Below are positions 6,019-25,804 of a stretch of 29,219 bases of DNA, in pieces. A program made the translations under genes and the position numbers. Position 1 is the first letter of the stretch. The number at the start of each line of letters is the position of its first letter. The DNA is from a virus: positions 1 to 29,219 of the IMG/VR virus record IMGVR_UViG_3300025137_000184, one strand, 5' to 3'. The notes under the pieces were generated by a model, which saw only the letters and a list, made by a program, of their open reading frames with translations, had not been told where the DNA came from and did no database searches.

Positions 6019-6040
6019 AAATCAAATAAATATTAACTAA

Positions 6041-6054
6041 ATCTATTATATTAT
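6041..6054 (+). promoter_or_regulatory. recurrent AT motif, copy 1 (candidate phage promoter)
   Basis: ATCTATTATATTAT ends directly at the ATG of the head protease. It is one of five near-identical copies located just upstream of gene starts (others at 6782, 9212, 21838, 25789). An AACTAA lies a few bases upstream, as in several other copies. It could be the core of a phage-specific promoter giving an almost leaderless mRNA, or a translation-enhancing leader. Confidence 0.5.
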
Positions 6055-6774
6055 ATGCCATGTAAAGAGTGTACAGAAGGAAAAGTAAAATGGGGAGAGT
6101 CAGGAGAATGTAAATACGATTCTATCGCTGAATGTGAAGCAGCTAACAAAGACTATTACGAAAATCTTAAAACTACTTCTATTGTAGAGTTAGTTATTGA
6201 TGATGATAGTCAAGAGTTAGCTATTGATGCTATTAGCTTAGTGTCAGCACCTGCAATTGAGCAAGACTTTGTTTATTTTGGAAAAGAAAAGAACAATTTA
6301 ACATTTGCAAAGATTGATGAAGAAAAGCGTATGCTAGTTAGTCCTGCACTTATCCCTAATAAGCAAATATTTAGATATGATCCTAATACTGATTCAGAAT
6401 ACTATGTTTACTTTAGTCCTGATACAGTTAGAAAAGCTAGTGAGTTATATTTAAAACATAACAACCATCATAAAGCAACCTACGAACACCAAGATAGAGT
6501 TTCAGGAGTTTTAACAGTTGAAAGTTGGATAAAAGAAGGGGATATGGATAAGTCAAAGCTTTACGGATATGATTTACCTAATGGCACTTGGTTTGTTAAA
6601 ATGAAGATAAACAACGAAGAACTATGGCAAAAGGTAAAAGCAGGTGAACTTAAAGGGCTATCTATTGAAGGGTACTTTACGGACAAAATGGAAAAGATGT
6701 CAGAAAAAGCACCAACTGATGAAGAAATATTAAAAGCTCTTAACGAGATAATACGTGAAAATCAAACAAAGTAA
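6055..6774 (+). CDS. prohead maturation protease (XkdF-like serine protease)
   Basis: 239 residues. It matches the XkdF-like group of phage head proteases: a histidine in YEHQD (His145), a beta region, then the nucleophile context KGLSIEGYF (Ser203). Such enzymes cut the scaffold and capsid N-termini during head maturation inside the host cell. The gene sits directly before the scaffold and capsid genes, the usual order. An N-terminal segment with four cysteines (C3, C6, C19, C27; CKECTEGKVKWGESGECKYD) precedes the protease domain and could bind a metal. The C-terminal 25 residues are helical and charged. Catalytic assignment is by motif, not by structure. Confidence 0.75.
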   Translation: MPCKECTEGKVKWGESGECKYDSIAECEAANKDYYENLKTTSIVELVIDDDSQELAIDAISLVSAPAIEQDFVYFGKEKNNLTFAKIDEEKRMLVSPALIPNKQIFRYDPNTDSEYYVYFSPDTVRKASELYLKHNNHHKATYEHQDRVSGVLTVESWIKEGDMDKSKLYGYDLPNGTWFVKMKINNEELWQKVKAGELKGLSIEGYFTDKMEKMSEKAPTDEEILKALNEIIRENQTK

Positions 6775-6781
6775 CTAACTA

Positions 6782-6794
6782 TTCTATTATATTA
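6782..6794 (+). promoter_or_regulatory. recurrent AT motif, copy 2 (candidate phage promoter)
   Basis: TTCTATTATATTA lies 11 bases before the ATG of the scaffold gene. It shares its first 13 bases with copies 3 and 5. It is the only copy with a short A-rich leader between motif and start (22 bases from the C of TTC to the ATG, against 12-14 elsewhere). This favours a transcriptional role over a purely translational one. Confidence 0.45.
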
Positions 6795-9190: not shown

Positions 9191-9211
9191 AGTACAATAA
9201 AAACAGACTTT

Positions 9212-9227
9212 TTCTATTATATTATAT
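9212..9227 (+). promoter_or_regulatory. recurrent AT motif, copy 3 (candidate phage promoter)
   Basis: TTCTATTATATTATAT runs directly into the ATG at 9228. It follows a strong terminator, so a new transcript has to begin about here for the downstream genes. This copy is identical over 16 bases to copy 5 at 25789, which also follows a terminator. Confidence 0.55.
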
Positions 9228-15282: not shown

Positions 15283-15391
15283 TGAAGCTAAAAAACTCTA
15301 CGAAGCTTACTTTATTCTATTTTTTCTTAATTGTTTTAGTTTTATTCTTTTCTATTTAATACCCTTTCTTCTCTAGTAAATACATATTTTT

Positions 15392-15420
15392 GTTAAAAAA
15401 AGCGTTAAAAAGTTTGTTAA
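15392..15420. repeat. three GTTAA direct repeats at 12-bp phase
   Basis: GTTAA occurs at 15392, 15404 and 15416; the first two copies extend to GTTAAAAA. The regular 12-bp spacing and the overlap with the promoter suggest a binding site for a repressor, initiator or activator. In AT-rich DNA part of this could be chance. Confidence 0.4.
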
Positions 15421-15443
15421 TTCAAAAATAAGTTTTATCTTTG
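15413..15443 (+). promoter_or_regulatory. Bacteroidota-type promoter for the early genes
   Basis: TTTG at 15413-15416, a 19-bp spacer, then TATCTTTG at 15436-15443 match the primary sigma promoter consensus of Bacteroidota (TTTG and TAnnTTTG). Transcription would start near 15450, giving a ~30-base leader to the ATG at 15481. This allows the host RNA polymerase to transcribe the early region immediately after infection. Confidence 0.8.
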
Positions 15444-15480
15444 TTTCATAATTAAAACGAAATAAACTAAACAAACTAAA

Positions 15481-15732
15481 ATGAAAACAACTTTTAAAAT
15501 GAAGGAAGCAACAAACAAAGAAGAAGCGATTATATCTATATTAGACGTTATAGACGAAAACCCACTTTGGCTTAACAAAATTACTAATAGCTTATTTTTA
15601 GTAGTAAAAAGTATCGAACCTGAACACAAAAAATTCTTATTAGAAAAATCAATAGATGAACAAGTAATTGATTTGTTTGTTAAACTTAAAACTGAATACT
15701 ATAACTTTAAAGATAATACACAATGGAGTTAA
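15481..15732 (+). CDS. early protein of unknown function
   Basis: 83 residues, charged and helical, no cysteine, no membrane segment (TNKEEAIISILDVIDENPLW, HKKFLLEKSIDEQVIDLFVK). It is the first gene behind the host-type promoter and so probably among the first proteins made. The position is typical of host-takeover or anti-defence proteins, but no motif supports a specific role. Its last 10 bases overlap the next gene. I do not recognise the family. Confidence 0.6.
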   Translation: MKTTFKMKEATNKEEAIISILDVIDENPLWLNKITNSLFLVVKSIEPEHKKFLLEKSIDEQVIDLFVKLKTEYYNFKDNTQWS

Positions 15733-16055
15733 TAGCACAAGACTTTCACTTCTATAATAATGGAGTGTATAAAACAATAGAAAAACTATCACCACAAGGT
15801 TGGTTTACGGATATAAAAAAAGTTGAACCAAGTATTAGAATATTTGGAACACAAAAACAAATTGACAAAGCTTTAGATAATTATATTGAAATGACAGGAT
15901 TAAATTTAGATGAATGTTATGATTTTAAAGTAGAAGAACAAAGCACTCAATTTTATAATAAAGAACGAAATGAAATAATTAAAAACAAGCTGCAGGAATA
16001 CAAAAACATTTATGATGTATTAAGTAATGACTCAGCATTAATAACAACGATATGA
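15723..16055 (+). CDS. early protein of unknown function
   Basis: 110 residues, mixed alpha/beta, with one cysteine (DECYDF). The first ~40 residues look like a small beta unit (FHFYNNGVYKTIEKLSPQGWFTDI), and the second half is a long charged helix (KERNEIIKNKLQEYKNIYDV). It overlaps its upstream neighbour by 10 bases, and the stop overlaps the next ATG (ATGA). No family recognised. Confidence 0.55.
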   Translation: MELIAQDFHFYNNGVYKTIEKLSPQGWFTDIKKVEPSIRIFGTQKQIDKALDNYIEMTGLNLDECYDFKVEEQSTQFYNKERNEIIKNKLQEYKNIYDVLSNDSALITTI

Positions 16056-16258
16056 AAGAAACTGAATTAATACACAAAAGAATGAATGACATTAATACTT
16101 TTCAAGCTCACGAAAACGAAGTATATTTAAGAGGAACAGATGAATGTGGTAATGACTTTCAGATCTGTTTTGATAGCTACAACTTCTTAGAATGGATTGA
16201 CAAAGAACAATTAGAATATATTAAAGAACAATTAACTAAATACATAAATACAAAATGA
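16052..16258 (+). CDS. small early protein of unknown function
   Basis: 68 residues, with ATGA overlaps at both ends, so it is translated as part of a tight chain. The sequence is a beta-type core (NEVYLRGTDECGNDFQICFD) followed by a charged helix (WIDKEQLEYIKEQLTKYI). There are two cysteines at about residues 31 and 38. No recognisable family. Confidence 0.55.
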   Translation: MKETELIHKRMNDINTFQAHENEVYLRGTDECGNDFQICFDSYNFLEWIDKEQLEYIKEQLTKYINTK

Positions 16259-16563
16259 AACAAACAATGAATTTTTATGACTTTCAACGATGGTTTGAAA
16301 ACGTAAGACCAAATAATTTTAGCAACGCAGGATTGATAAGTTTATTTGAATATTTTGAAGAATTTGAAGAAGGAACAGGAGAAGAATGGGAATTTGATGG
16401 AATAGCTTTATGCTGCGACTTTACAGAATACGATGATCTTGATGAATTTAAAGCTAATTATACTTGCGAAGAATATCAGGAAATAGAAGATTGGGATAGA
16501 TTAGAATATTATACAACGACAATTCCTTTAAATGGTAAAGGTTGTATTATACAAAATTTTTAA
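16255..16563 (+). CDS. acidic early phage protein of unknown function
   Basis: 102 residues, strongly acidic (EYFEEFEEGTGEEWEFDG), with a segment IALCCDFTEYDDLDEFKANY. I have seen this pattern (xALCCxFTEY) in unannotated proteins of many phages. The acidity could suggest a DNA mimic, for example an anti-restriction or nucleoid-protein inhibitor, but this is only a guess. The ATG overlaps the previous stop (ATGA). Confidence 0.55.
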   Translation: MKQTMNFYDFQRWFENVRPNNFSNAGLISLFEYFEEFEEGTGEEWEFDGIALCCDFTEYDDLDEFKANYTCEEYQEIEDWDRLEYYTTTIPLNGKGCIIQNF

Positions 16564-16582
16564 ATAATTAAATAATTAAAAT

Positions 16583-16978
16583 ATGAAAACTGAAAAGATT
16601 AAAGAAAAGTACCACCACTACGGACTAGACAAAGAAGATGTCTTTAAACATCAACACTATGTAATTATCACAAGATCAGGAATTGATAAAATTCAGGCAA
16701 TAGAAAATATCACTATTGATTATGAAGTTATAAATTGCGAAAGAGATTTTTGTGTAGTAAAAGCTTATGGGTATAAAGAAAGCGAAGAAATAAAAATTCA
16801 AACATTTGGCTCAGCTTTAAAAGGCGAAGGGTTTAAAGATGGAAACTGTAACACTTGGTATGTAATGGAGATGGCTGAGAAAAGAGCTATGTCAAGAGCA
16901 GTACTAAAGCTTACAGGGTTCTATGAACTTGGAGTGTTTGGAGAAGATGAATCAGAAGATTTTAAAAAGAAATATTAA
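16583..16978 (+). CDS. probable recombination-associated protein (unknown family)
   Basis: 131 residues. The central part (INCERDFCVVKAYGYKESEE) is beta-like. It is followed by FGSALKGEGFKDGNCNTWYVMEMAEKR and AMSRAVLKLTGFYE. The pattern AEKRAxxRAxLKLxG is reminiscent of the Arg/Ala-rich helix of phage single-strand annealing proteins (ERF/Rad52-like) and related proteins that accompany SSB genes. The next gene encodes an SSB-like protein, which supports a role in recombination or replication. The protein is short for a full annealase, so it may be an accessory factor. Confidence 0.45.
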   Translation: MKTEKIKEKYHHYGLDKEDVFKHQHYVIITRSGIDKIQAIENITIDYEVINCERDFCVVKAYGYKESEEIKIQTFGSALKGEGFKDGNCNTWYVMEMAEKRAMSRAVLKLTGFYELGVFGEDESEDFKKKY

Positions 16979-16996
16979 TTAAATAAATAAATAAAA

Positions 16997-17329
16997 ATGG
17001 ATGTAACAGGAAAATTAGTAAAGATACTTGACTTAGAAACAGGTACAAGTAAAGCAGGAAAAGAATGGCAAAAACAAACAGTAGTGATTGATTCAGGAGA
17101 TGAATTTAATAACTTAACTGCTGTAAGTGCTTTTGGAGAAGATAAAATAAAACACTTAAACAAATTAGATATTGGTATGACAGTTTCTATTCTTTGTAAT
17201 GTTTATTCAAGAGAATATAAAGGGAAATACTATCATAATATAGATGGGTACCACTTTACAAATCAAAGTGAAAATCCTGAAGTTAAAGACAGCTTTGCAA
17301 CTACTGATGATAATGATTTACCTTTTTAG
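16997..17329 (+). CDS. single-stranded DNA-binding-like protein (DUF3127-type OB fold)
   Basis: 110 residues. The start (MDVTGKLVKILDLETGTSKA), the segment GKEWQKQTVVIDSG and a later beta stretch (KYYHNIDGYHFT) fit the OB-fold DUF3127 family, a Bacteroidota SSB-like group. The last seven residues, DDNDLPF, match the acidic C-terminal tip with which SSB proteins recruit replication and repair partners. It would coat single-stranded phage DNA during replication. Its position between the recombination-like gene and the DnaA-like gene supports this. Confidence 0.75.
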   Translation: MDVTGKLVKILDLETGTSKAGKEWQKQTVVIDSGDEFNNLTAVSAFGEDKIKHLNKLDIGMTVSILCNVYSREYKGKYYHNIDGYHFTNQSENPEVKDSFATTDDNDLPF

Positions 17330-17331
17330 AT

Positions 17332-17841
17332 ATGACTGAAGAATTAAATTTTAAAGCAATATGCAACCTCACTACAAGGGTAATGGGGTTGCCAACAGGA
17401 TCTTTAGCATTTAAGAGTAGGCAAAGAAAGTTGCAATCAGCACGTTCAATAGCAGGTTACATTGGTTTAACTAAAGAAGATATATCTAGAGTTGTTATAG
17501 CTAAAATACTAAACAGGGATAGAACTGCAACTTATCATTACGAAAGAACTCACAAAAAAAACTTTCAAAGGTGTCGTGTTTATAGAGATTGTTTTACTAA
17601 AATCTATAAAGAATATAAAAACATAGATGGAGAAAAGGATATTTTTATAAACAAAAGACAAATGAAAAGCCACTTATTACAAAACAGGGTAATAGAGAGT
17701 AAAAAATTTGATGTAAAATTAGAAGTAAAAAGTGGTAATGCTATCTGCTTTATAAACACTACTTACTTTGACTTTTCCAATCAGTTAAAAAATATTGAAA
17801 AAGCGATGGCAAACTATCATTATACAATAAAAATTATATGA
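17332..17841 (+). CDS. DnaA domain IV-like DNA-binding protein
   Basis: 169 residues. Residues ~30-75 resemble the DNA-binding domain IV of DnaA: QSARSIAGYIGL as the recognition scaffold and NRDRTATYHYERTH (61-74) in place of the DnaA signature (R/K-D-H-T-T-V-x-H). There is no AAA+ ATPase part. The C-terminal ~90 residues are of unknown fold. A free DnaA-type domain next to replication genes suggests binding to DnaA-box-like sites at an origin, either recruiting or displacing host DnaA. The stop overlaps the next ATG (ATGA). The similarity is moderate. Confidence 0.6.
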   Translation: MTEELNFKAICNLTTRVMGLPTGSLAFKSRQRKLQSARSIAGYIGLTKEDISRVVIAKILNRDRTATYHYERTHKKNFQRCRVYRDCFTKIYKEYKNIDGEKDIFINKRQMKSHLLQNRVIESKKFDVKLEVKSGNAICFINTTYFDFSNQLKNIEKAMANYHYTIKII

Positions 17842-18458
17842 AACATTTGCTAAGCTTATCAGCTTTTTTGGTTTTAAATAAAGAATTGGCAAGGAGAGTT
17901 GGATTAAATTCAGCCATACTTCTTTCTGACTTAATTAGCAAAGAAGAATATTTTATATCAAATGGTGCTACTGATGGGTGGTTTTTTAACACTGAAGCTA
18001 ATATTGAGAGAGATACCACCCTAACTCCTTACCAACAAAGAAAGTGTCTTAAAACGCTTAAAACAGAAGGGTTAATAGAAATTAAAAGAAAAGGAATACC
18101 TGCTAAACAATTCTTTAAAATAAACGAAGAACAAGTTGTTAAGTTTCTTAAGGACTTGTCAGCAACAAACTTAAGGACTATTAATAATAATAAAGTAATA
18201 AAAATAAACAATAAATACTTTAAAAAGCCGACTATAATTGAAATCGGATCTTATTGTAAAGAAAGGAATAATAATATAGAAGCTGAAGCATTTTTTGATT
18301 TTTATGAAAGTAAAGATTGGTTTGTAGGAAAGTCTAAAATGAAATGTTGGAAAAGTGCTGTAAGGAATTGGGAACGTAGAGATAAAATAAAACCTAAAAC
18401 AACAAGCAAGTTGCACTCACAAATTAACGCTTGGCAAGAAGCTAAAAAACTATTATGA
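17838..18458 (+). CDS. replication initiator-like protein (winged helix plus C-terminal loader-type domain)
   Basis: 206 residues. Residues ~1-110 look like a winged-helix replisome organiser N-domain (LNKELARRVGLNSAILLSDL, TPYQQRKCLKTLKTEGLIEI). A basic, Asn-rich linker follows (NNNKVIKINNKYFKKP). Residues ~145-206 hold EAEAFFDFYESKDWFVGKSK and WKSAVRNWERR, a pattern found at the C-terminus of many phage initiators. It would bind the origin and help to load the host helicase. The genome encodes no helicase or polymerase of its own that I can see. The coupled neighbours are the DnaA-like gene and a possible loader. Confidence 0.65.
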   Translation: MKHLLSLSAFLVLNKELARRVGLNSAILLSDLISKEEYFISNGATDGWFFNTEANIERDTTLTPYQQRKCLKTLKTEGLIEIKRKGIPAKQFFKINEEQVVKFLKDLSATNLRTINNNKVIKINNKYFKKPTIIEIGSYCKERNNNIEAEAFFDFYESKDWFVGKSKMKCWKSAVRNWERRDKIKPKTTSKLHSQINAWQEAKKLL

Positions 18459-18817
18459 AAACACTAAAAAACGAAAACCTAAAAGAACTAGCTGAAAAAG
18501 TGTTAGACTTAGTCGCTAGAACCTCAGTAGAGATAGGACACAAAACAGATCCAAGCACTATGGCTAACCTTAGCAAGATCTTTGCTCAAGACTTGATTCA
18601 AGAGAAACGCTTTGGGAATATGACTTTTAATCAAATTCAAGATGCTTTTAGGCAAGGCATAAGATTTGGCAAAGATGAACCTTTTTTAAATATTAGAACT
18701 TTTTACAAGTGGACTTATGCTCACAAGAAAGTTGTAGATGATGCTTATCATCAAGTTCATACTTTAGGACAAAAGAATGTACCCTTTTATCAAGAACCTG
18801 TAAAACTACTTAAATGA
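18455..18817 (+). CDS. replication-region protein, possible helicase-loader partner
   Basis: 120 residues, helical, basic at the end. The segment DPSTMANLSKIFAQDLIQEK followed by RFGNMTFNQIQDAFRQGIRF is a helix-rich unit that I associate with small proteins encoded next to phage replication initiators. There is no Walker motif, so it is not a DnaC-type ATPase. It starts with an ATGA overlap on the initiator gene and ends with a similar overlap on a 20-codon reading frame. Its role is inferred from the neighbourhood only. Confidence 0.5.
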   Translation: MKTLKNENLKELAEKVLDLVARTSVEIGHKTDPSTMANLSKIFAQDLIQEKRFGNMTFNQIQDAFRQGIRFGKDEPFLNIRTFYKWTYAHKKVVDDAYHQVHTLGQKNVPFYQEPVKLLK

Positions 18818-18876
18818 TAGGTTGGGTAATAATAACAGCAATAGTGCTGTGGCTAATTAGAAAACTAAGAGAATGA
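18814..18876 (+). CDS. 20-residue single-pass membrane peptide
   Basis: ATG at 18814 overlaps the upstream stop (ATGA), and its own TGA overlaps the next ATG (ATGA). The peptide is almost entirely one hydrophobic helix (WVIITAIVLWLI) with a basic end (RKLRE). The tight coupling on both sides fills an otherwise unexplained 55-base gap. Tiny membrane peptides of this kind are often missed in annotation. Confidence 0.5.
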   Translation: MIGWVIITAIVLWLIRKLRE

Positions 18877-19295
18877 CAACAAGACAAACATCAATAGATT
18901 GCTTTAATCAAATTAAAGAAGAAGGACTTTTATCTAATATGAGATTTAAAATATATGAATCTATTTTGATTAATGCACCCTGCACAAGTGCAGAAGTATT
19001 ATCTACTATGTTGAGCAAAAATAGTGCAATTACATCTTCAAGAGCTAGATTTACTGAATTAAGAGAATTAGGAGTTATTTATGAAGTGCAAAATAGAAAG
19101 TGTACTATAACAGGAAGAACATCAATAGAGTGGGATCTGACAGATAGACTGCCTGTAAATATGAAAAAGACTAATAAAACAAAGAAACACAGAACAGATG
19201 ATGCTTTAAATTCATTAAGGGAATTATTTAAAAATAAAAAGAATAGTACAGTTGAGGATTGGAAAGAGGTTGCTAATTTGATTAAGAGTATATGA
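18873..19295 (+). CDS. winged-helix DNA-binding-type protein
   Basis: 140 residues. Residues ~20-90 read as a winged helix (KIYESILINAPCTSAEVLST, TSSRARFTELRELGVIYEVQ, KCTITGRTSIEWDL). This arrangement is typical of phage proteins encoded beside NinG. The C-terminal part is basic and helical (NMKKTNKTKKHRTDDALNSL). It may be a transcriptional or replication regulator. Its stop overlaps the NinG start (ATGA). Confidence 0.55.
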   Translation: MTTRQTSIDCFNQIKEEGLLSNMRFKIYESILINAPCTSAEVLSTMLSKNSAITSSRARFTELRELGVIYEVQNRKCTITGRTSIEWDLTDRLPVNMKKTNKTKKHRTDDALNSLRELFKNKKNSTVEDWKEVANLIKSI

Positions 19296-19696
19296 AGTCA
19301 TTAAGCAAACTAAAAAAAGAATTAGATAAGTGGTTTAGTCTTTACATAAGACTTAGAGATGCTACTAATGAGGGATTGGTTCAATGCTTTACATCAGGAA
19401 GGGTGTATCACTATAAGAGTATTCACGCAGGACACTTTATGTCTAGGAGGTGTCTTTCTACAAGATGGTGTGAAATAAATGTACAACCTCAATCGGCTGC
19501 TGATAATCTTTTTGGACAGGGAAAGCAGTATCAGTTCGGACTTAATTTGGATGCTAAATATGGAGAGGGTACTGCTGAAGATTTACAAATAAAGTCTAAA
19601 CAAATACAAAAGTTTTCTAGGGTTGATTATGAAGATAAGATCAGTTATTATAAATCACTTGTTAAAAACTTAAAAAAAGAAAAGGAAATAGAATAA
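19292..19696 (+). CDS. ninG: NinG/Rap-like recombination protein
   Basis: 134 residues. It matches lambda NinG (Rap), a structure-specific endonuclease that acts on recombination intermediates: LKKELDKWFSLYIRLRD at the N-terminus, AGHFMSRRCLSTRW (46-59), ENVQPQ-type segment INVQPQSAADNLFGQG, and YGEGTAEDLQIKS. In the classical family two Cys pairs form a zinc site around the AGHF motif. Here the expected positions read C32-F-T-S35 and S68-A-A-D71, so three of four ligands are missing while the His/Arg core remains. I associate this variant with flavobacterial phages. The gene lies in the recombination and replication block. Confidence 0.8.
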   Translation: MKSLSKLKKELDKWFSLYIRLRDATNEGLVQCFTSGRVYHYKSIHAGHFMSRRCLSTRWCEINVQPQSAADNLFGQGKQYQFGLNLDAKYGEGTAEDLQIKSKQIQKFSRVDYEDKISYYKSLVKNLKKEKEIE

Positions 19697-19705
19697 CTTT
19701 TTTAT

Positions 19706-19713
19706 TATCTTTG
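19706..19713 (+). promoter_or_regulatory. isolated -7 type element (TATCTTTG)
   Basis: A perfect TAnnTTTG lies 5 bases before the ATG at 19718. No TTTG is visible at the proper distance upstream, so this is only half of a Bacteroidota promoter. If used, the transcript would begin at or just inside the start codon of the next gene. Confidence 0.3.
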
Positions 19714-19717
19714 GCGT

Positions 19718-20074
19718 ATGCTCATACCGATTTATTCAAGTGAAGAACACAAATCAATAGTTGAGGTTTATATTACAATGTGTAAACAATTTTCACAAGA
19801 AGTAGCAACTCAAGCAAGATATAAAAACTATTTAGATGTTATTGATTTAATAACAGAATACCATAATGGCTATGGAGAAGGGCTTAGAGAGAATAACTTT
19901 TATAATTGGATAACTATTATCCCAATTAACTTATCAGTCGCTACAAGTGGTTTTTTTGCAGGTATAGAAACGAAAACTAACTCAGCTTCAATTAGAGCTT
20001 ACAAAGTTGTGTTAGAACAAATGCTACAACAGGTAATAGAAAAGCTAGATAACTTAGAGCCAACAAATGAATAA
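19718..20074 (+). CDS. unknown protein of the early region
   Basis: 118 residues, helical, one cysteine, no membrane segment strong enough to call (NLSVATSGFFAGIETKTNS is mildly hydrophobic). An ATG at 19718 follows a gap of 21 bases after NinG. Later in-frame ATG codons could also serve. It overlaps the sigma-like gene by 8 bases. No family recognised; the coupling suggests it acts with, or is regulated like, the sigma-like factor. Confidence 0.5.
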   Translation: MLIPIYSSEEHKSIVEVYITMCKQFSQEVATQARYKNYLDVIDLITEYHNGYGEGLRENNFYNWITIIPINLSVATSGFFAGIETKTNSASIRAYKVVLEQMLQQVIEKLDNLEPTNE

Positions 20075-20648
20075 AATCTATAAAGAAATAGCTACACTTA
20101 GTGATAAGTTTAGAACTATGGCTTTTGGATTGACTACTGATGAGAATAAAATAAATAACGCTGTTCAGGAATTGATGCTTTACTTTTTACAAATGAATCC
20201 TGAAACTTTAAAAAGTATTTATGACAAAGATGGATTAGAGGGAGTTACAAGATATGGAGCAGTAGCACTAAGGAGAGCTTTAACAAGCCCTAGAAGTAGT
20301 TTTTATTATAAGTATGAAAAGTATTATACACATATTGATAGGTCTATTTATAGTTCTAATGCAACTGATACTGATGAGTTTTTTATTCCTGATGGTTTTA
20401 ACTATAAAGATATATCAAACATACCAAATGAAGAAGTAGATAACCGTAAGTTAAACAAGATAGAGCAAATAGATAAAGTATTAGATAATGTGTATTGGTA
20501 TGATAAAAAAATCTTTGAGCTTTATTACTATGAAGGCAACACTCTTGATAGTTTAGCTGCAAAGACTAAGATAAGCAGGAACAGTATTTTTAACACAATA
20601 GACAAAGTAAGAACAATAATTAAAAATAAATTAAATGAAGATGTATAA
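20067..20648 (+). CDS. sigma-70-like transcription factor
   Basis: 193 residues. The C-terminal ~55 residues look like a sigma region 4 helix-turn-helix (WYDKKIFELYYYEGNTLDSL, AAKTKISRNSIFNTIDKVRT). The N-terminal half (ELMLYFLQMNPE, YGAVALRRALTSPRSSFYYK) is compatible with a reduced region 2. Small sigma-like proteins of this type are common in Bacteroidota phages. It could direct host RNA polymerase to phage-specific late promoters; the recurrent TTCTATTATATTATAT motif is the obvious candidate site. It overlaps the gene before it by 8 bases. Confidence 0.65.
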   Translation: MNKIYKEIATLSDKFRTMAFGLTTDENKINNAVQELMLYFLQMNPETLKSIYDKDGLEGVTRYGAVALRRALTSPRSSFYYKYEKYYTHIDRSIYSSNATDTDEFFIPDGFNYKDISNIPNEEVDNRKLNKIEQIDKVLDNVYWYDKKIFELYYYEGNTLDSLAAKTKISRNSIFNTIDKVRTIIKNKLNEDV

Positions 20649-20715
20649 CCCAAAAACCCACGACAGTTTTATTATGCAATTTGGATTTGAATACCCAAGA
20701 CTTGTAATTGCGTGA
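20641..20715 (+). CDS. 24-residue reading frame between the sigma-like and Cys-rich genes
   Basis: ATG at 20641 lies inside the last codons of the sigma-like gene, and the TGA overlaps the GTG start of the next gene (GTGA). The peptide (MYNPKTHDSFIMQFGFEYPR) is not hydrophobic. It fills an otherwise empty 63-base gap. It may be a real micro-gene or only a coupling leader for the Cys-rich protein. Confidence 0.35.
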   Translation: MYNPKTHDSFIMQFGFEYPRLVIA

Positions 20716-21113
20716 ACAAGTTTTTTGTACCAAATGAAGTATATAAAGATAGAATAGCAATATGCCGATCTTGTGATAAGTATATAAGTTTATTAGGAAA
20801 TTGCTCTATTTGCAAATGCTTTATGAAAGTAAAAGCAAGAATAGCACCAATGGCTTGTCCTCAGAAGTATTGGGATAAAACAACAGAAGTAGAAACACCT
20901 GATGACTTGCCGCAAGAAATAATAGATGAGATTTTAGATATGTGGAAAGACTTAAAAACAGGTAGAGCAAAAGATGTAGAAGCAAAAAAAATTATGATAG
21001 AAACTTACAATACAATCTACAACACCAATTACTCTCCAACAACTAATTGTGGTTCTTGTATATCTACTTGCTTTGATGGAATTAAAAAATTATATAAACA
21101 ATACAGTAAATGA
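20712..21113 (+). CDS. Cys-rich zinc-binding-type protein
   Basis: 133 residues. Residues 18-49 carry C-x2-C, C-x2-C-x-C and a further Cys (C18, C21, C31, C34, C36, C49; ICRSCDKYISLLGNCSICKC), a zinc-ribbon pattern widespread in small phage proteins. The C-terminal end has another cluster (C113, C116, C120; NCGSCISTCFDGIKKLY). GTG is used as the start because it sits at the upstream stop and fits the MNKFFVPNE N-terminus. The role is unknown; nucleic-acid or protein binding is likely. Confidence 0.6.
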   Translation: MNKFFVPNEVYKDRIAICRSCDKYISLLGNCSICKCFMKVKARIAPMACPQKYWDKTTEVETPDDLPQEIIDEILDMWKDLKTGRAKDVEAKKIMIETYNTIYNTNYSPTTNCGSCISTCFDGIKKLYKQYSK

Positions 21114-21361
21114 AAAAGAAAGAACAACCACCTCACTATTATATAGGCAAAAAGTATAAAATAGAAGCTAGAAAAGTTGTAGAGGACTTTCAAGCAGATA
21201 ACTATAATATAGGAACAGCTATAACTTATTTGTTAAGGGCAGGAAATAAAGAAGGCAATCCTGCTGAACAGGATATTAGAAAAGCTATTAATCACTTACA
21301 CTTTGAATTAGATAGAATCTTTGAGGGGGGTAAAATTAAAACAGGAGGACTGGCACAATGA
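21110..21361 (+). CDS. DUF3310 family protein
   Basis: 83 residues. The order HYYIGKKYKIEARKVVEDF, then YNIGTAITYLLRAGNKEGNP, then DIRKAINHLHFELDRI is the full DUF3310 pattern, a small helical family found in many phages and sometimes labelled as nucleotide kinase-like. There is no Walker motif, so kinase activity is doubtful. ATGA overlaps link it to both neighbours. Likely part of nucleotide metabolism or host interaction, but not proven. Confidence 0.75.
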   Translation: MKKKEQPPHYYIGKKYKIEARKVVEDFQADNYNIGTAITYLLRAGNKEGNPAEQDIRKAINHLHFELDRIFEGGKIKTGGLAQ

Positions 21362-21615
21362 CATTATATAAATGCGTATGCGGAAACGAGGAGGAAATAG
21401 GTAAAGCAACAATAGCTTTAAGAGATGGTAAGTGGAGAACTATTGAAGCTCTTTGTGATTGTGGTTTATGGATGCAATCAGAACCTACTGAGGGTATGCC
21501 TAGTATAAAAAGAACAGAAGAATCTTTAAGTAAGAAGAAAAGAGGGGATAAGCTTTGGGAAGGTGCTAAAGAAAAACTAGTAGGAGAAAGAGGAGTAAAC
21601 GAATCATTTGATTAA
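21358..21615 (+). CDS. small Cys-containing protein of unknown function
   Basis: 85 residues with C6-x-C8 and C33-x-C35 (YKCVCGNEEE and EALCDCGLWM), which could form one zinc site of the treble-clef or ribbon type. The remainder is charged (EESLSKKKRGDKLWEGAKEK). It is coupled to the DUF3310 gene by an ATGA overlap. The function cannot be told from the sequence. Confidence 0.5.
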   Translation: MTLYKCVCGNEEEIGKATIALRDGKWRTIEALCDCGLWMQSEPTEGMPSIKRTEESLSKKKRGDKLWEGAKEKLVGERGVNESFD

Positions 21616-21618
21616 GAT

Positions 21619-21822
21619 ATGAAAGCACGTACTACAAAATATTTAAAAGAACTGACAAAGAAAGCAGTAAAGTATTATTTTGAAAATTCTGATAATAGCT
21701 TAAAACATATATCTAAAAAATTTAATATTAATACAGAAATGTTAAGTGATGGAATTAGCAAAGAACTAAAGAAAAGAGTAGACAACAGCTTATCCAGAAA
21801 ATACATAAAAAAATTTAATTAA
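21619..21822 (+). CDS. small helix-turn-helix-type protein
   Basis: 67 residues, basic (20 or so Lys/Arg). The middle segment SLKHISKKFNINTEMLSDGI reads as a helix-turn-helix of the type found in small transcription factors and terminase-like DNA binders. It is the last gene before a copy of the recurrent AT motif and the modification cassette. It could be a local regulator. Similarity to a specific family is not clear. Confidence 0.5.
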   Translation: MKARTTKYLKELTKKAVKYYFENSDNSLKHISKKFNINTEMLSDGISKELKKRVDNSLSRKYIKKFN

Positions 21823-21837
21823 ATAAATAACTAAAAA

Positions 21838-21848
21838 TTCTATTATAT
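21838..21848 (+). promoter_or_regulatory. recurrent AT motif, copy 4 (candidate phage promoter)
   Basis: TTCTATTATAT, then ACT, then the ATG at 21852. The second half of the motif is degenerate, while the first 11 bases are conserved. It is preceded by TAACTAAAAA, like other copies. It would start the transcript of the ParB, glycosyltransferase, dioxygenase and terminase genes. Confidence 0.5.
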
Positions 21849-21851
21849 ACT

Positions 21852-22409
21852 ATGAAACTAAAAATCAACCAATTAAAACCAAATAGCAGCAATCCAAGAA
21901 TAATTAAAGAAGCAAAATTCAAAAAGCTTGTACAAAGCATTAAAGACTTTCCTGAAATGTTAGAGCTAAGACCTGTTATATTAGATGAAGATATGACTAT
22001 CTTAGGGGGTAATATGAGATACAAAGCTTGTGTAGAAGCAGGTTTAAAAGAAGTCCCTGTTAAAATAGCTAAAGGATTAACAGAAGAACAAAAGCAAGAG
22101 TTCATAGTAAAAGACAATGTAGGGTTCGGAGAATGGGATTGGGATGCTTTAGGCAACGAATGGGATAATGTTAAGTTAGGAGAATGGGGTATGGATGTAT
22201 GGCAACCTGAAGAAGCAGTAGACTATTCTGTATTAGATGACATAGACTTAGGATCAACATTGCACGAAAAAGAAAAAGGTGTAAAGAGAGCTATACAAAT
22301 AGAGTTTAGTGCCGAGCATTATGAAGAAGCAAACAACCTAATAAACAAAGCAAGATCGGAAGGTAAGAATGTAGGGCTAATTGTTTTAAACGCTTTAAAG
22401 AATGATTAA
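21852..22409 (+). CDS. ParB/sulfiredoxin-fold nuclease-domain protein
   Basis: 185 residues. Residues ~1-75 match the ParB N-terminal domain: INQLKPNSSNPR, FKKLVQSIKDFP, RPVILDEDMTILGGNMRYKA (GGNMR at 52-56, the nucleotide-binding arm). ParB-type domains in phages occur next to DNA methylases, modification enzymes and terminases, where they may bind CTP or ATP and DNA. The C-terminal part (KRAIQIEFSAEHYEEANNLI) is a separate small domain. There is no helix-turn-helix of plasmid ParB, so partitioning is unlikely. Its 8-base overlap with the glycosyltransferase gene ties it to the modification cassette. Confidence 0.75.
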   Translation: MKLKINQLKPNSSNPRIIKEAKFKKLVQSIKDFPEMLELRPVILDEDMTILGGNMRYKACVEAGLKEVPVKIAKGLTEEQKQEFIVKDNVGFGEWDWDALGNEWDNVKLGEWGMDVWQPEEAVDYSVLDDIDLGSTLHEKEKGVKRAIQIEFSAEHYEEANNLINKARSEGKNVGLIVLNALKND

Positions 22410-23238
22410 AGTTTTTACTTTTTTTTACAACAGGTTTACAGATGCGACAACCTCCATAGCTTTAAAAGAAAATGGAATAGAACATAATGTATTAATTCAC
22501 AAAGAAGAAGATTATATAAAATTCAAAGAAGGTGGTACTATAGGTGGAAATCCTATCATAACCAACCAACCTAAAGGACTGGCATACCAAAGAAATGCAG
22601 CTTTAGATTTAATGGAAAAAGATGAATGGGCAGTTTTTATGTGTGATGACTTTCAAAAAATACTGTCATACCCTATTAAAGAAATAATGAACAAGCACAC
22701 TAAAATAAATGTAACTATTGAAAATCAATCAGAATATCAACTAACAAACGAAAAACACAAAATGTCTTTAAAAGAAATGTTTACTATGTTTCCTAGACTA
22801 ATTAAACTTGCTGAAAAAAATAACATAAAATTAATTGGCTTTGGTTTACATTCTAATCCTTTAAATTTAGGAAGAAAGTTTGCAACAAGAGGTTTGGCTG
22901 ACGGTAGGTTTTGGTTAGTAAAAAAATCAGATTATAGGTTTGATGAAAACGTGCAAATGGTAGATGATGTTTGTTGGACAGCAGAAAACCTTATAAGGCA
23001 TAACAACGTGTTAATCTTAAATTGGACAGTACCATTTTTTAAAAGATATACTGCAGGTGCTTTTGGAAGTATTTCAGAAAGAAAAGAACAGAGATTAAAA
23101 GAGTGTAAATATTTGGCAAACAAATTTAATCCATTAATACGTATAGCAAACAAAGCTAATTGGGATTATGGAACTCACGTTAGAATTTATGGTAGTAATA
23201 ATAATATTAAAAAAGCAAGATTAAATAACGGATTATGA
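22402..23238 (+). CDS. GT-A-type glycosyltransferase, probably acting on modified DNA bases
   Basis: 278 residues. The N-terminus MIKVFTFFYNRFTDATTSIA is a short beta strand and helix as in GT-A enzymes. Then GLAYQRNAALDLMEKDEWAV leads to FMCDDF, where D82-D83 stands at the metal/nucleotide-sugar site (DxD-like). RFWLVKKSDYRF and VDDVCW (D188-D189) fit the acceptor side. It lies directly before a TET/JBP-like dioxygenase gene with an ATGA overlap. In phages such pairs make hydroxylated bases that are then glycosylated. I infer that it transfers a sugar to hydroxymethylated phage DNA. A role in modifying host surface sugars cannot be excluded. Confidence 0.65.
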   Translation: MIKVFTFFYNRFTDATTSIALKENGIEHNVLIHKEEDYIKFKEGGTIGGNPIITNQPKGLAYQRNAALDLMEKDEWAVFMCDDFQKILSYPIKEIMNKHTKINVTIENQSEYQLTNEKHKMSLKEMFTMFPRLIKLAEKNNIKLIGFGLHSNPLNLGRKFATRGLADGRFWLVKKSDYRFDENVQMVDDVCWTAENLIRHNNVLILNWTVPFFKRYTAGAFGSISERKEQRLKECKYLANKFNPLIRIANKANWDYGTHVRIYGSNNNIKKARLNNGL

Positions 23239-24038
23239 AAACAATAAAACTAAAAAAAGTAGAACACAAAGTCAAGATAGGAGATAAATGCCAATACTAC
23301 GAACCAAACGTAAAAGAAGATTGCTTGTTAGACCTAGATGGTGAGATTGTTGGATTTTATATTAAAGATGTAAATAAATACTCTAAAAAGCTAAACCAAT
23401 TATTAGCTATTGCAGACAAAGAATTTAGGGGTGAGAATGTTCCTAAAAGCACTATGACAAGAAGTCAAGCATTAATGACTAGTTATAAAAAAACAGGTGA
23501 CTATAAATCTGAGAACACAGTTCAACAATACTCTACTATTTTAGGAAGTGTTGCACCTAGACCTCATATGCGTAGACCTTACCCCAACATATCTTCAGTT
23601 CATAGAGATAAAAAGGCACAAACATTTATTAAAGCAATGTGGGGTTCTTGTTTAGAAGCAGAACAAATCATAAAAGATCTTACTCCTAAAATACACGAAA
23701 GACAAATTGAACTCTTTAAAGATATAAAGGATGAATGGAAGTTTGGAACAATGTACACAAGCAGTATATCTAATTTCAATATTGCAGCACCATTTCACAG
23801 GGACACAGGTAACTTAGAGGGAACAGTAAATATTATCCTAACCAAAAGAAACAACTCTAATGGTGGGTGTTTAAATGTGCCTGACTATAATGTAACATTT
23901 GAACAGGCAGACAATTCAATGTTAGTTTATCCTGCTTGGAAAAACGTACACGGAGTAACACCAATAAAACCAATAGCAGAAAATGGTTATAGAAACAGTT
24001 TAATATTCTATCCGTTAAAAGCTTTTAAAGGAATATAG
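23235..24038 (+). CDS. TET/JBP-like 2-oxoglutarate/Fe(II) dioxygenase (DNA base hydroxylase)
   Basis: 267 residues. The catalytic core lies in the last third: FHRDTGN with the iron ligands His188 and Asp190, the third ligand His239 in NVHGVTPI, and Arg253 (YRNSLIFYP) placed to bind 2-oxoglutarate. The HRDxGN context and the GGCLNVPDYNVTFEQADNSM strand fit the TET/JBP family, which oxidises the methyl group of thymine or 5-methylcytosine in DNA. The N-terminal part has a basic segment PRPHMRRPYPNISSVHRD (108-125). It is coupled to the glycosyltransferase gene and ends one base before terS. The family assignment is strong at the level of the dioxygenase; TET/JBP membership is likely. The base substrate is unknown. 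Confidence 0.75.
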   Translation: MKTIKLKKVEHKVKIGDKCQYYEPNVKEDCLLDLDGEIVGFYIKDVNKYSKKLNQLLAIADKEFRGENVPKSTMTRSQALMTSYKKTGDYKSENTVQQYSTILGSVAPRPHMRRPYPNISSVHRDKKAQTFIKAMWGSCLEAEQIIKDLTPKIHERQIELFKDIKDEWKFGTMYTSSISNFNIAAPFHRDTGNLEGTVNIILTKRNNSNGGCLNVPDYNVTFEQADNSMLVYPAWKNVHGVTPIKPIAENGYRNSLIFYPLKAFKGI

Positions 24039-24039
24039 T

Positions 24040-24393
24040 ATGGACAAAAGTAGACATATAAAAAAGGAAACAATGCTCAAAGCTTTAGAAAGTAGTTTGG
24101 GGGTTGTGACAGTTGCTTGTAAACAAGCTGATATACCACGCTCAACATATTACAAATGGCTAAACGAAGATAAGGAGTTTGCAAAGGAAGTAAAAGAAAT
24201 TGAGAACATAGCACTAGACTTTGGGGAAAGTCAATTACACGCACAAATGAAAGATGGCAACACTTCAGCAACTATATTCTTTTTAAAAACTAAAGGCAAG
24301 AAACGTGGTTATGTTGAAAGATCTGAATTAGATTTAAGCTCAGGAGATGAGCCTGTTAAGATTAACGTAAACATAAAAGGAGTTGAACATTGA
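24040..24393 (+). CDS. terS: terminase small subunit
   Basis: 117 residues. Residues ~8-45 form a helix-turn-helix (MLKALESSLGVVTVACKQAD, IPRSTYYKWLNEDKEFAKEV) typical of small terminase subunits that recognise the packaging start. Next is a helical oligomerisation region (IALDFGESQLHAQMKDGNTS) and a C-terminal beta end (EPVKINVNIKGVEH). Immediately upstream of terL and overlapping it by 11 bases. It binds viral DNA and regulates the large subunit. Confidence 0.8.
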   Translation: MDKSRHIKKETMLKALESSLGVVTVACKQADIPRSTYYKWLNEDKEFAKEVKEIENIALDFGESQLHAQMKDGNTSATIFFLKTKGKKRGYVERSELDLSSGDEPVKINVNIKGVEH

Positions 24394-25693
24394 TGCTAAC
24401 TTTACGCATACGCAAGAACAGGCAATAGAATATCTATTTGACAAAACCACAACTGAAGTTTTGTTTGGAGGTGCAGCAGGTGGTGGTAAGTCTTGGGTGG
24501 GTTGTAGTTGGTTAGTATTAATGTGTATAAAACATCCTAAGACAAGATACCTAATGGGTAGGTCTAAGCTTGATGCTTTAAAGAAAACAACACTAAACAC
24601 TTTTTTTGAGGTTTGTGAAACTTGGGGATTGCAGTCAGGCAAACACTACACATTTAATGGTGGTTCAAACATAATAACCTTTTATAATAAGTCTGAGATT
24701 ATGTTAAAAGATTTATTTCTTTATCCTAGTGACAGGAACTTTGACAGCTTAGGATCTTTAGAAATTACAGGTGCTTTTATTGATGAAGCAAATCAGATTA
24801 CAGAAAAAGCAAAAAACATTGTAGCATCAAGAATGAGATACAAATTAGATGAATACAACTTAATACCAAAGATGTTAATGACTTGTAATCCTGCAAAGAA
24901 TTGGGTGTACACGCAATACTATAGACCTGCTAAAGATGGTAAACAAAAATCACACAGAAAGTTTATACAAAGTTTAGTTGATGACAATGAGTATATATCT
25001 AAGTTTTATAAAAAACAATTAGAAACACTTGATGAATTAAGCAAACAAAGATTGCTATTTGGTAATTGGGAGTATGATGCTACTAAAGATAGTTTAATAC
25101 AATATGATGCTATTATCAATATGTTTGAACAAAAAGGAGTAGAAGGAGAAAAATACATAAGTTGTGATGTTGCGAGGTTTGGAAGCGATAAGACAGTTAT
25201 AATGCTTTGGGAAGGGCTAAACCTTATAACTATAAGAACGTTGCTTAAATCGGCTGTAAATGATGTTGTTGAAGCTGTTAGACAATTACAACAAGAATAC
25301 AAAGTTGATTTGCGAAATATAATTGTTGATGAGGATGGTGTTGGAGGTGGGGTTAAAGATTATTTGAGGTGTCAGGGTTTTGTAAACAATTCCAAAGCTT
25401 TAAAAGGAGAAAACTATCAAAACTTAAAAACACAATGTTATTATAAATTAGCTGACTTAATAAATAAAGGGCAGTTAGGTGTCAGGTGTTCTGATGTAAA
25501 TGTGAAGAACTATATTATAGAAGAATGTGAGCAAGTGAGAACAAAAGATGCCGAAAAAGACAATAAGTTACAGATAATACCTAAAGACACAATAAAAGCA
25601 ATTATAGGTAGATCTCCTGATTATTCAGATGCTTTGGCTATGAGGATGTATTTTGAAATAGATGGTAATTATGGAAAATACTTTGTACAATAA
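24383..25693 (+). CDS. terL: terminase large subunit
   Basis: 436 residues. The ATPase domain has a Walker A GGAAGGGKS (29-37), a Walker B FIDEANQ (Asp134-Glu135) and a coupling motif region MLMTCNPAKNW. The RNase H-like nuclease has acidic residues in CDVARFG (Asp262), IIVDEDGVGGG (Asp316) and SPDYSDALAM (Asp416). It pumps DNA into the prohead and cuts it. No ATG is available: the frame offers TTG at 24383, or ATT at 24389 which overlaps the terS stop. The TTG is taken here. A strong terminator follows at once. Confidence 0.9.
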   Translation: MNIDANFTHTQEQAIEYLFDKTTTEVLFGGAAGGGKSWVGCSWLVLMCIKHPKTRYLMGRSKLDALKKTTLNTFFEVCETWGLQSGKHYTFNGGSNIITFYNKSEIMLKDLFLYPSDRNFDSLGSLEITGAFIDEANQITEKAKNIVASRMRYKLDEYNLIPKMLMTCNPAKNWVYTQYYRPAKDGKQKSHRKFIQSLVDDNEYISKFYKKQLETLDELSKQRLLFGNWEYDATKDSLIQYDAIINMFEQKGVEGEKYISCDVARFGSDKTVIMLWEGLNLITIRTLLKSAVNDVVEAVRQLQQEYKVDLRNIIVDEDGVGGGVKDYLRCQGFVNNSKALKGENYQNLKTQCYYKLADLINKGQLGVRCSDVNVKNYIIEECEQVRTKDAEKDNKLQIIPKDTIKAIIGRSPDYSDALAMRMYFEIDGNYGKYFVQ

Positions 25694-25730
25694 AAAAAGG
25701 GTAGCAGTCTAACTCTGCCACCCCCTTTTT
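25692..25730 (+). terminator. strong terminator after terL (bidirectional)
   Basis: The left arm A-run, GGG, TAGCAG pairs with CTGCCA, CCC, T-run (one A-C mismatch in the stem, two extra C). The loop is TCTAACT. It ends in TTTTT on the + strand and in a seven-T run on the - strand, so it can stop transcription from both sides. Confidence 0.85.
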
Positions 25731-25750
25731 GAAAACTGAAATGAAACAAA
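25692..25750 (-). ncRNA. candidate short RNA (about 55-60 nt) read backwards into the terL terminator
   Basis: A minus-strand promoter (25757-25786) points into the bidirectional terminator, whose hairpin and T-run would end the transcript at about 25692. The product would be a ~58-nt RNA consisting of ~20 unpaired bases and the hairpin. It would be complementary only to the extreme 3' end of the terL transcript. No evidence beyond the arrangement of signals. Confidence 0.3.
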
Positions 25751-25756
25751 CTGCGA

Positions 25757-25786
25757 CAAAGATACACAATAAACTAAAATAACAAA
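25757..25786 (-). promoter_or_regulatory. host-type promoter on the minus strand
   Basis: On the - strand TTTG (25786-25783), an 18-bp spacer and TATCTTTG (25764-25757) match the Bacteroidota consensus. The spacer is one base shorter than that of the early promoter at 15413. Transcription would start near 25750 and run towards the terL terminator. No reading frame lies in between. Confidence 0.45.
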
Positions 25787-25788
25787 AT

Positions 25789-25804
25789 TTCTATTATATT
25801 ATAT
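25789..25804 (+). promoter_or_regulatory. recurrent AT motif, copy 5 (candidate phage promoter)
   Basis: TTCTATTATATTATAT ends directly at the ATG of the tail assembly chaperone gene. It lies after a strong terminator, so a new transcript must begin here for the tail genes. It is identical over 16 bases to copy 3. Confidence 0.55.

Follow-up and report, generated by a model that had tools for sequence, protein, structure and literature searches.

The window, by which we designate the entire stretch of DNA analysed here (29,219 bases, one virus record), carries a direct repeat of 99 bases at both ends and therefore probably represents a complete circular or circularly permuted phage genome. 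Nearly all of its long ORFs are located on the plus strand. Megablast of positions 15300-25700 against phage records yielded no match. Among cultured phages, the closest terminases are found in Flavobacterium phage 11b (55%), Cellulophaga phage phi10:1 (53%), a Bacteroides phage (41%) and Polaribacter phages (37%). Because of these nearest terminases and of an early promoter of the Bacteroidetes type, the phage likely infects a member of the Bacteroidota. The gene under study, which encodes protein P0001, is located 3' of a NinG/Rap gene (19292-19696) and one gene of unknown function, with which it is probably co-transcribed, and 5' of a ParB-like/terminase block (Table 1).

Table 1. Predicted promoters, genes and the specificity-associated codon in the 29,219-base window.
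Feature	Position	Strand	Details
Late promoter 1	6023..6051	+	box CAAATAAAT, -10 ATCTATTATAT; before head-maturation-protease-like gene 6055-6774
Late promoter 2	6764..6792	+	box AAACAAAGT, -10 TTCTATTATAT; weakest site, score 21.4; before gene 6806-7543 (unknown)
Late promoter 3	9194..9222	+	box ACAATAAAA, -10 TTCTATTATAT; before structural-like gene 9228-9947, portal gene further on
Early promoter, host sigma-A type	15414..15443	+	Bacteroidetes type, TTG-N19-TATCTTTG
Host-type -7 element	19706..19713	+	TATCTTTG; 4 nt before the ATG of the gene preceding the factor gene
118-aa gene	19718..20074	+	no Pfam match; overlaps the start of the factor gene
Predicted ECF-like sigma factor gene (P0001)	20067..20648	+	193 aa from ATG; alignments, profile matches, predicted fold
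Arg76 codon of P0001	20292..20294	+	residue changing in step with the promoters in relatives
Late promoter 4	21820..21848	+	box TAAATAAAT, -10 TTCTATTATAT; before ParB-like gene 21852-22409 and terminase genes
Late promoter 5	25771..25799	+	box AAACTAAAA, -10 TTCTATTATAT; after terL, before gene 25805-26404 (PHROG, function unknown)

An earlier note on this DNA had read a region 4-like helix-turn-helix from the sequence of P0001, and profile searches bear this out for the C-terminal part. PHROG 36, annotated 'transcriptional regulator', matches residues 127-190 (E 9e-6), and NCBIfam TIGR02937 (sigma70-ECF) matches residues 61-189 with an E-value of 5.8e-7 and 29.3 bits, the curated cut-off being 42.9. 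A match to PHROG 79 ('anti-termination protein Q-like') was obtained at E 0.01. In the comparison with sigma-70 models that the note had proposed, TIGR02937 matches all 38 members of our first alignment (best E 1.2e-8); P0001 itself stays under the curated cut-offs, matches Pfam Sigma70_r4 weakly (15.6 vs a cut-off of 24.1) and has no region-2 match in Pfam. Within the window TIGR02937 matches once, at the factor gene.

Relatives of the factor are encoded in 446 viral_contigs stretches, the best 80 of which were kept. The first alignment comprised P0001 and 37 sequences from these best 80 loci, 48 having been tried and 11 dropped (nine with an internal stop, two near-duplicates); a second alignment combined P0001 with 70 of 73 chosen diverse relatives. 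In the 38 sequences of the former, the N-terminal 87 and the C-terminal 60 residues are strongly conserved, with a variable linker in between, and P0001 is predicted to consist of a region-2-like domain (~1-89), a linker (~90-125) and a region-4-like domain (~126-190). A tblastn search with P0001 against 50,697 phage records gave no match at E 0.01, a divergent relative used as query detected three weak matches to crAss-like sigma-W factors alone (E up to 1), and hhalign of the factor profile with E. coli sigma-E aligned 38 columns of region 4 alone. A profile search of solved structures returned weak or unrelated matches only (mraZ, E 0.0027; designed proteins; sigma-28, E 0.28), and the assignment as sigma factor therefore rests on fold comparison.

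AlphaFold models calculated from the 38-sequence and the 71-sequence alignment reached mean pLDDT values of 65.5 and 80.3, respectively. In the latter model, pLDDT is ~90-95 over residues 1-70, mostly 87-95 in the region-2-like domain block and near 50 in the linker. Two helical domains are thus predicted on either side of a low-confidence linker (~90-125), which corresponds to the ECF-type layout. The top PDB matches of Foldseek, all full-length, are SigL (3.8e-4), followed by SigH, RpoE, AlgU and sigma-E, and VIA-align is led by M. tuberculosis SigL (Z 10.9, 158 aligned residues) and E. coli sigma-E (Z 10.7, 142 aligned). A fold unlike that of sigma factors, which the earlier note had named as evidence against its reading, was sought among these matches: by title, the 50 listed Foldseek and 50 VIA rows are all sigma factors or initiation complexes holding them, with ECF chains on top and many matches covering both domains. 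An earlier, poorer model also had two UPF0122 and two KorA rows in its lists of 50. The Z values are middling for helical proteins, and in our view the weight lies in the all-sigma list spanning both domains. The region-4-like domain fits region 4 of sigma-E on -35 DNA with a TM of 0.81 (target length) and an rmsd of 1.6, while the two-domain rmsd to solved sigma factors amounts to ~15-20, because the linker is poorly modelled and the domains are placed freely, so that the comparison is sound per domain only. Taken together, the model points to an ECF-type fold for P0001, i.e. region 2, linker and region 4.

The earlier note had further described an AT motif at five late blocks. The five sites stand, and the motif is the -10 half of a bipartite late promoter, [C/A]AA[A/C]TAAA-N10-TTCTATTATAT. 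That first reading had included neither the upstream box, with its constant spacing, nor the region-2-like part of P0001, nor the short interval between motif and start codon. To score such sites, an ungapped matrix was built from 47 unique examples in 16 other records, leaving aside the window and three near relatives. In the window it detects five sites, with start positions 6021, 6762, 9192, 21818 and 25769, all on the plus strand and with scores from 21.4 to 34.2. Best scores of the same matrix in 20 dinucleotide-shuffled genomes ranged from -2.1 to 12.4. At the site with its core from 6041, i.e. late promoter 1, the first T of TTCTATTATAT is replaced by A. The start codon follows 3 or 5 bases past the motif end at four of the five sites and 13 bases past it at the fifth. 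All sites precede packaging, structural or adjoining blocks: behind late promoter 2, gene 6806-7543 is followed by a virion-structural-like gene (7566-8480), and late promoter 5 also precedes the genes continuing round the circle. The matrix scan detected no late site between 9.23 and 21.8 kb, a segment in which the structural unit runs to its end (portal at 11044) before the early block, which includes the factor gene, follows. The portal-like ORF (11044-13038) encodes 664 aa, and the best portal match spans only residues 9-375.

The same architecture recurs in the relatives. Exact TTCTATTATAT is present in all 20 long factor-bearing records including the window, mostly with four coding-strand copies in the near-complete ones, and it also occurs on the opposite strand with at most two copies per record. 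Lining up 67 unique sites revealed the second box [C/A]AA[A/C]TAAA ten bases upstream of the -10 element. When viral_contigs was scanned for TAAACTAAA-N{9,12}-TTCTATTATAT, 121 of the matches listed (122 in 120 stretches) had a spacer of 10 and one had a spacer of 11; the spacing is rigid, as in ECF-type promoters. A second matrix, whose training sites include those of the window, was made neutral at the two variable -10 bases and applied to 436 overlapping loci representing 299 unique factors. It detected 605 sites scoring at least 18 on the factor strand and none on the other strand. Among 69 unique sites, the ATG is located 3, 5 or 6 nt past TTCTATTATAT in 40, 13-16 nt in 13 and 22-35 nt in 15 cases, and none was found in one. 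In many relatives (L010, L013, L015, L040, L051, L065, L080) a palindrome such as TTGATTAATCAA or ATTGAATAATCAAT directly follows the ParB/terminase late promoter; it was not seen at the corresponding site of the window and may serve as an operator or form a 5' hairpin.

Factor and motif occur together. With the neutral matrix, all 201 of the 436 overlapping loci that extend more than 6 kb past the factor start carry at least one site. Conversely, the factor is present in all 29 terminase relatives in which over 6.5 kb of sequence precedes terL; these are at least 80% identical to the window terminase and hence say little about distant phages. Around exact-motif sites, among the matches listed, a factor gene is encoded on the same strand in 14/14 cases with more than 8 kb upstream, in 21/21 with more than 7 kb and in 34/35 with more than 6 kb. 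Relatives keeping the motif without the factor, which by the earlier note would have spoken against the link, were sought as well. The two exceptions with over 5 kb upstream are contigs (L273 and L296; 7.3 and 5.9 kb long) that carry the motif and have no factor in 6.7 and 5.5 kb upstream, respectively. Their post-terminase gene is 64-66% identical to that of the window, and none of the other 18 window proteins tried, factor and terminase included, was found in them. Given the shortness of both contigs and the missing window terminase, the factor may be encoded beyond their ends. One 118-kb record (G060) has a switched-motif match (see below) and no factor. No complete genome of the family with motif and without factor was seen among the records examined, although a clean exception may exist. 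The distant co-occurrence test comprised three cultured phages with related terminases: Flavobacterium phage 11b, phi10:1 (50,000 of 53,664 bases) and P12002L have neither the factor nor a comparable late site, the one match in phi10:1 being located on the minus strand and scoring 14.8. L273 and L296 possibly carry a swapped packaging module. A 29,000-base record labelled as Euryarchaeota MAG (L316, PBGL02000003.1) encodes a 77% identical factor; the length of the record suggests a misbinned phage contig.

Variation among the promoters links them to one residue of the factor. Terminase relatives lacking TTCTATTATA after terL show TTACATTATAT, TTATATTATAT and other variants at this place. Three records have TACATTATAT cores at all five sites, and their factors carry Asn76; a group with TTAT promoters has Tyr76, Arg76 being otherwise invariant in that comparison. 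A further group, retrieved with an Asn76 factor as query, combines Tyr76 with TTAC promoters. Factors with CT at the variable positions have Arg76 in 231 of 233 cases, the remainder being one Lys and one Thr. Among the 299 unique factors, Arg76 is associated with CT (232), CT/GA (3), AT/CT (1), AC (1) or no scored site (43), Asn76 with AC (4) or no scored site (1), and Tyr76 with AC (3), AT (3) or no scored site (2). Lys76 goes with CT once and twice with no scored site, Thr76 with CT once, and two factors are unreadable at this position.

Switched promoters were also retrieved without reference to the factor by scanning viral_contigs for TAAACTAAA-N10-TTAYATTATAT. Of 62 loci, 29 have a factor on the same strand and 27 of these are readable: 19 carry Asn, seven Tyr, one His and none Arg at position 76. 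Ten of these factors are on contigs from earlier sets and 17, as checked by sequence, are new; all of the latter are non-Arg76, and they include a new Asn76 group as well as the His76 factor. Following 21 of the remaining 33 loci into their whole records brought two further close factors (G049, Tyr76; G062, Asn76) and four distant ones, and 15 records had none, so that scan and look-up together give Arg76 in 0 of 29 readable factors at switched promoters. In 14 of the 15 factor-less records less than 4.5 kb lie upstream of the motif, and the factor could be cut off; the 15th is G060.

In a tree of 261 factors, from which columns 70-92 were excluded, the switched promoters fall into three clades of 14, 9 and 3 factors (branch supports 94, 83 and 96) plus one single factor, L461. 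This distribution suggests about three independent coupled switches and one uncoupled change each way: L461 keeps Arg76 with TTACATTATAT as its single scored site, and L477 has Thr76 together with CT sites. Mixed promoter sets also occur with Arg76: L144 has one TTAT site beside CT sites, and for three other factors the CT sites are joined by a TTGA-type match. A sign test on independent pairs in the tree had too few events to reach significance. Of the 59 columns counted as conserved, i.e. kept in at least 95% of the 233 CT factors, column 76 alone differs throughout in each of the three switched clades; column 68 is changed in two of them. Among random triplets of unrelated CT groups, such a column was found in 2 of 4000. 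Earlier triplet tests gave 9/4000 with partly different clades and 2/12,048 when conservation was not recomputed. Heavily gapped factors and those lacking a scorable promoter did not enter the residue-76 count among CT factors, the tree or the triplet tests. Judged from these comparisons, the coupled change of residue 76 and promoters is the strongest evidence linking factor and motif, and together with their co-occurrence it supports what the earlier note had offered as an inference, namely that the factor reads the motif.

Of the two partners in this coupling, the residue belongs to the region-2-like half of P0001; the bases belong to the -10-like element and not to the upstream box. Arginine with a C:G pair and asparagine with an A:T pair are familiar contacts. 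In alignments with E. coli sigma-E, one MAFFT mode placed residue 76 at K83 (region 2.4) and two modes at R65 (loop L3). We favor a position just after the helix best matching sigma region 2.4, because of the VIA offset (residue 1 of the model corresponding to residue 18 of sigma-E) and a shared VQE motif; the placement in loop L3 was set aside as less likely, even though two of the three MAFFT modes give it. With either placement, residue 76 would belong to a part of region 2 involved in reading the -10 element, whose upstream edge is formed by the coupled bases. By the VQE motif and one MAFFT mode, residue 76 appears to fall near N92 of M. tuberculosis SigH, a region-2 residue that, along with I91, touches the first base pair of the -10 element (PMC6411747). 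Loop L3 is described as setting -10 specificity in other ECF sigma factors (PMC6372665). We consider it reasonably likely, with some doubt left, that these marine phages hold a natural series of sigma factors paired with promoter sets, in which about three lineages re-coded the upstream edge of the late -10 element (TTCT to TTAC/TTAT) along with a change of Arg76 to Asn, Tyr or His, and that many of the late mRNAs are leaderless, since over half of the late sites have their start codon on, or only a few bases from, the predicted start of the RNA.

The unit that encodes the factor is located behind elements of the host type. The earlier note had placed a host-type promoter in the early region, and a matching sequence was indeed recovered there (TTG-N19-TATCTTTG, 15414-15443). 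In relatives of the first early gene, TTG-N17-21-TAnnTTTG is found upstream in 15 of 34 unique regions and on the other strand in none of 34; the -7 element alone is present in 25 of these regions vs 9 on the other strand. Across both strands of the window, TTG-N18-22-TAnnTTTG matches at eight positions, of which those at 15414 and 25785 were analysed further. Before the gene preceding the factor gene, TAnnTTTG is present in 216 of 233 unique relatives, compared with 29 of 233 on the opposite strand. In almost every case it ends 3-4 nt from the ATG, and a -33 TTG accompanies it in 1 of 233. The element at 19706-19713 is perhaps a leaderless, activator-dependent promoter. As the host element is given as spanning -12 to -5 (PMC6847099), the unit 19718/20067 would be transcribed without a leader; for F. 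psychrophilum, leaderless mRNAs are put at only 5.5% (PMC9723704). The factor unit thus lies, by sequence, where an early or middle unit would be expected, and the host-type promoter at 15414 and TAnnTTTG before this unit support a transcriptional cascade.

According to the cascade, host RNA polymerase with host sigma-A would transcribe the early region from 15414 as well as the 19718/20067 unit and thereby make the factor, which would then bind the host core polymerase. Recognition of the upstream box [C/A]AA[A/C]TAAA would fall to the C-terminal domain of the factor; the N-terminal domain would read and open TTCTATTATAT at the five promoters, driving the ParB-like/terminase, post-terminase, protease and other structural blocks. 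The upstream edge of the -10 element, which is CT and becomes AC or AT where Arg76 is replaced, would be read by residue 76. This division of labor follows ECF sigma factors, where the -10 element is recognized and opened by region 2 and, across a strict spacer, the -35 element is recognized by region 4 (PMC6411747, PMC6372665). From features that were computed, i.e. predicted fold, motif, spacing, co-occurrence and coupled change, we infer binding to core, direct contact with DNA and the order in time. In all, P0001 is very probably a phage-encoded ECF-like sigma factor that switches transcription from early to late genes.

Alternatively, P0001 could be a region-4-like late activator or antiterminator of the ArpU/RinA or lambda-Q type, which aids the host holoenzyme rather than replacing its sigma factor. 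Its best PHROG match, to the 'transcriptional regulator' family 36, and the match to the Q-like PHROG 79 (E 0.01) would agree with this, as would the location near NinG, which is the usual place for late regulators. Late activators of this kind (PHROG 36/79) have no region 2, however, and a host sigma element is present at their target promoters. P0001 is instead predicted to possess a region-2-like domain with very conserved residues and has ECF sigma matches over both halves, the host -7 element TAnnTTTG is absent from all five late sites, and the coupled changes affect the region-2-like half and the -10-like element. We therefore regard an activator as unlikely. Still less probable is that the motif is read by an alternative sigma factor of the host or by a phage-encoded RNA polymerase and that P0001 acts elsewhere: flavobacteria do possess several ECF sigma factors, seven in F. 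psychrophilum (PMC9723704), but no listed ORF between 15.4 and 21.8 kb exceeds 206 aa, which is too small for a single-subunit RNA polymerase, the window has no second TIGR02937 match, and promoters and residue 76 switch together. The reading of the motif as a translation-start, packaging or replication signal draws on the 40 of 69 sites with an ATG 3, 5 or 6 nt away and is highly improbable, given the 15 sites with the ATG 22-35 nt off, the second box at fixed distance, the up to five copies per genome before certain genes, and the absence from the three cultured terminase relatives, bar one weak antisense match.

A sigma factor of this type has counterparts in other phages. Like gp47 of Salmonella phage 7-11 (SaPh711_gp47), for which in vitro work established the bipartite late promoters GTAAtg-16-aCTA (PMC8948821) after an earlier prediction (PMC4331800), P0001 would be a phage sigma factor acting, together with host core polymerase, on bipartite late promoters beside early promoters of the host sigma factor, here as predicted from sequence. 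Phage 7-11 differs as a ~90-kb enterobacterial phage (PMC4331800) with another promoter sequence; in the window phage the box is A-rich, the -10 element is TTCTATTATAT and many start codons are at the predicted RNA start. In phiEco32, the phage sigma factor phi32_gp36 is grouped with ECF sigma factors (PMC7881722) and serves a few AT-rich middle and late promoters, which consist of the single element tAATGTAtA without an upstream box (PMC8948821), whereas those of the window are bipartite. T4 gp55 is, like P0001, a small divergent late sigma factor, acting on host core polymerase (PMC2988020). T4 splits the sigma functions over gp55 and gp33 and needs the sliding clamp, whereas P0001 has both domains in one protein. 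Bacterial ECF sigma factors (E. coli sigma-E, M. tuberculosis SigH/SigL) share the predicted folds of region 2, linker and region 4 as well as the rigid spacer, and differ from P0001 by the weak sequence match and by its AT-rich -10 element. The crAss-like 'RNA polymerase sigma-W factor' (cr109_1, 187 aa) matches the factor profile over its C-terminal 68 columns (hhalign E 1.2e-5), i.e. the region-4 part alone aligns. Among the titles listed by a search of the literature on Bacteroidetes phages, with most subscription papers outside its reach, none concerned this family. Phage late sigma factors as such are already known, and that of the window is of the same kind, with what appears to be a sequence family of its own. 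What goes beyond the known kind is the paired change of residue 76 and promoter set.

The cascade would provide a late-transcription switch for abundant small uncultured phages that probably infect Bacteroidota and of whose nearest cultured terminase relatives three are without the system. If true, the switched lineages would show how natural evolution alters the specificity of a sigma factor along with that of its entire regulon while avoiding a lethal intermediate. The residue-76/promoter pairs represent a natural experiment on sigma specificity, testable with few proteins and promoters, and could supply sigma-promoter pairs for work in Bacteroidota.

A sister group of phages appeared in the searches. 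Four of its records (G050, G055, G059, G061) each combine a single exact match to the switched motif with a distant factor (E 1.3e-11 to 1.1e-10), which matches PHROG 1740 'RNA polymerase sigma factor' at 1.3e-4 and Pfam Sigma70_r2 at E 0.023, under the cut-off. Compared with the window, protease, capsid and portal of G059 and G061 are 45-46%, 34-35% and 29% identical, respectively, while for G050 and G055 NinG matched only, in G050 along with the post-terminase gene. The switched-motif matches in this group are attributed to chance, as they are on the strand opposite to the factor, AT-rich and not before late genes; no shared late promoter was found in the two half-records examined. Within this group, which has related capsid genes, the distant ECF-like protein is encoded at ~5300-5900 of L642 and likewise in L640, L641 and L644; the window-type late promoter was not found before their late genes.

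Finally, a host-type promoter on the minus strand (TTG 25785-25783, TATCTTTG 25764-25757) overlaps late promoter 5. It points into the hairpin and T-run after terL (25692-25785) and, as estimated by eye, would give an antisense RNA of ~60 nt. Matching CAAANNTA is present in 142 of 238 unique regions before TAAACTAAA-type late promoters, two controls giving 10 and 9. This promoter and the late sigma holoenzyme could be in competition, either one shutting out the other. The predicted start of the antisense RNA (~25722-25750) is complementary to ATGAAAAC, with which several genes begin (15481, 16583, 18455, 28009); by eye, 12 bases are shared with the start of gene 16583. It is conceivable that a small RNA silences the genes starting with ATGAAAAC.
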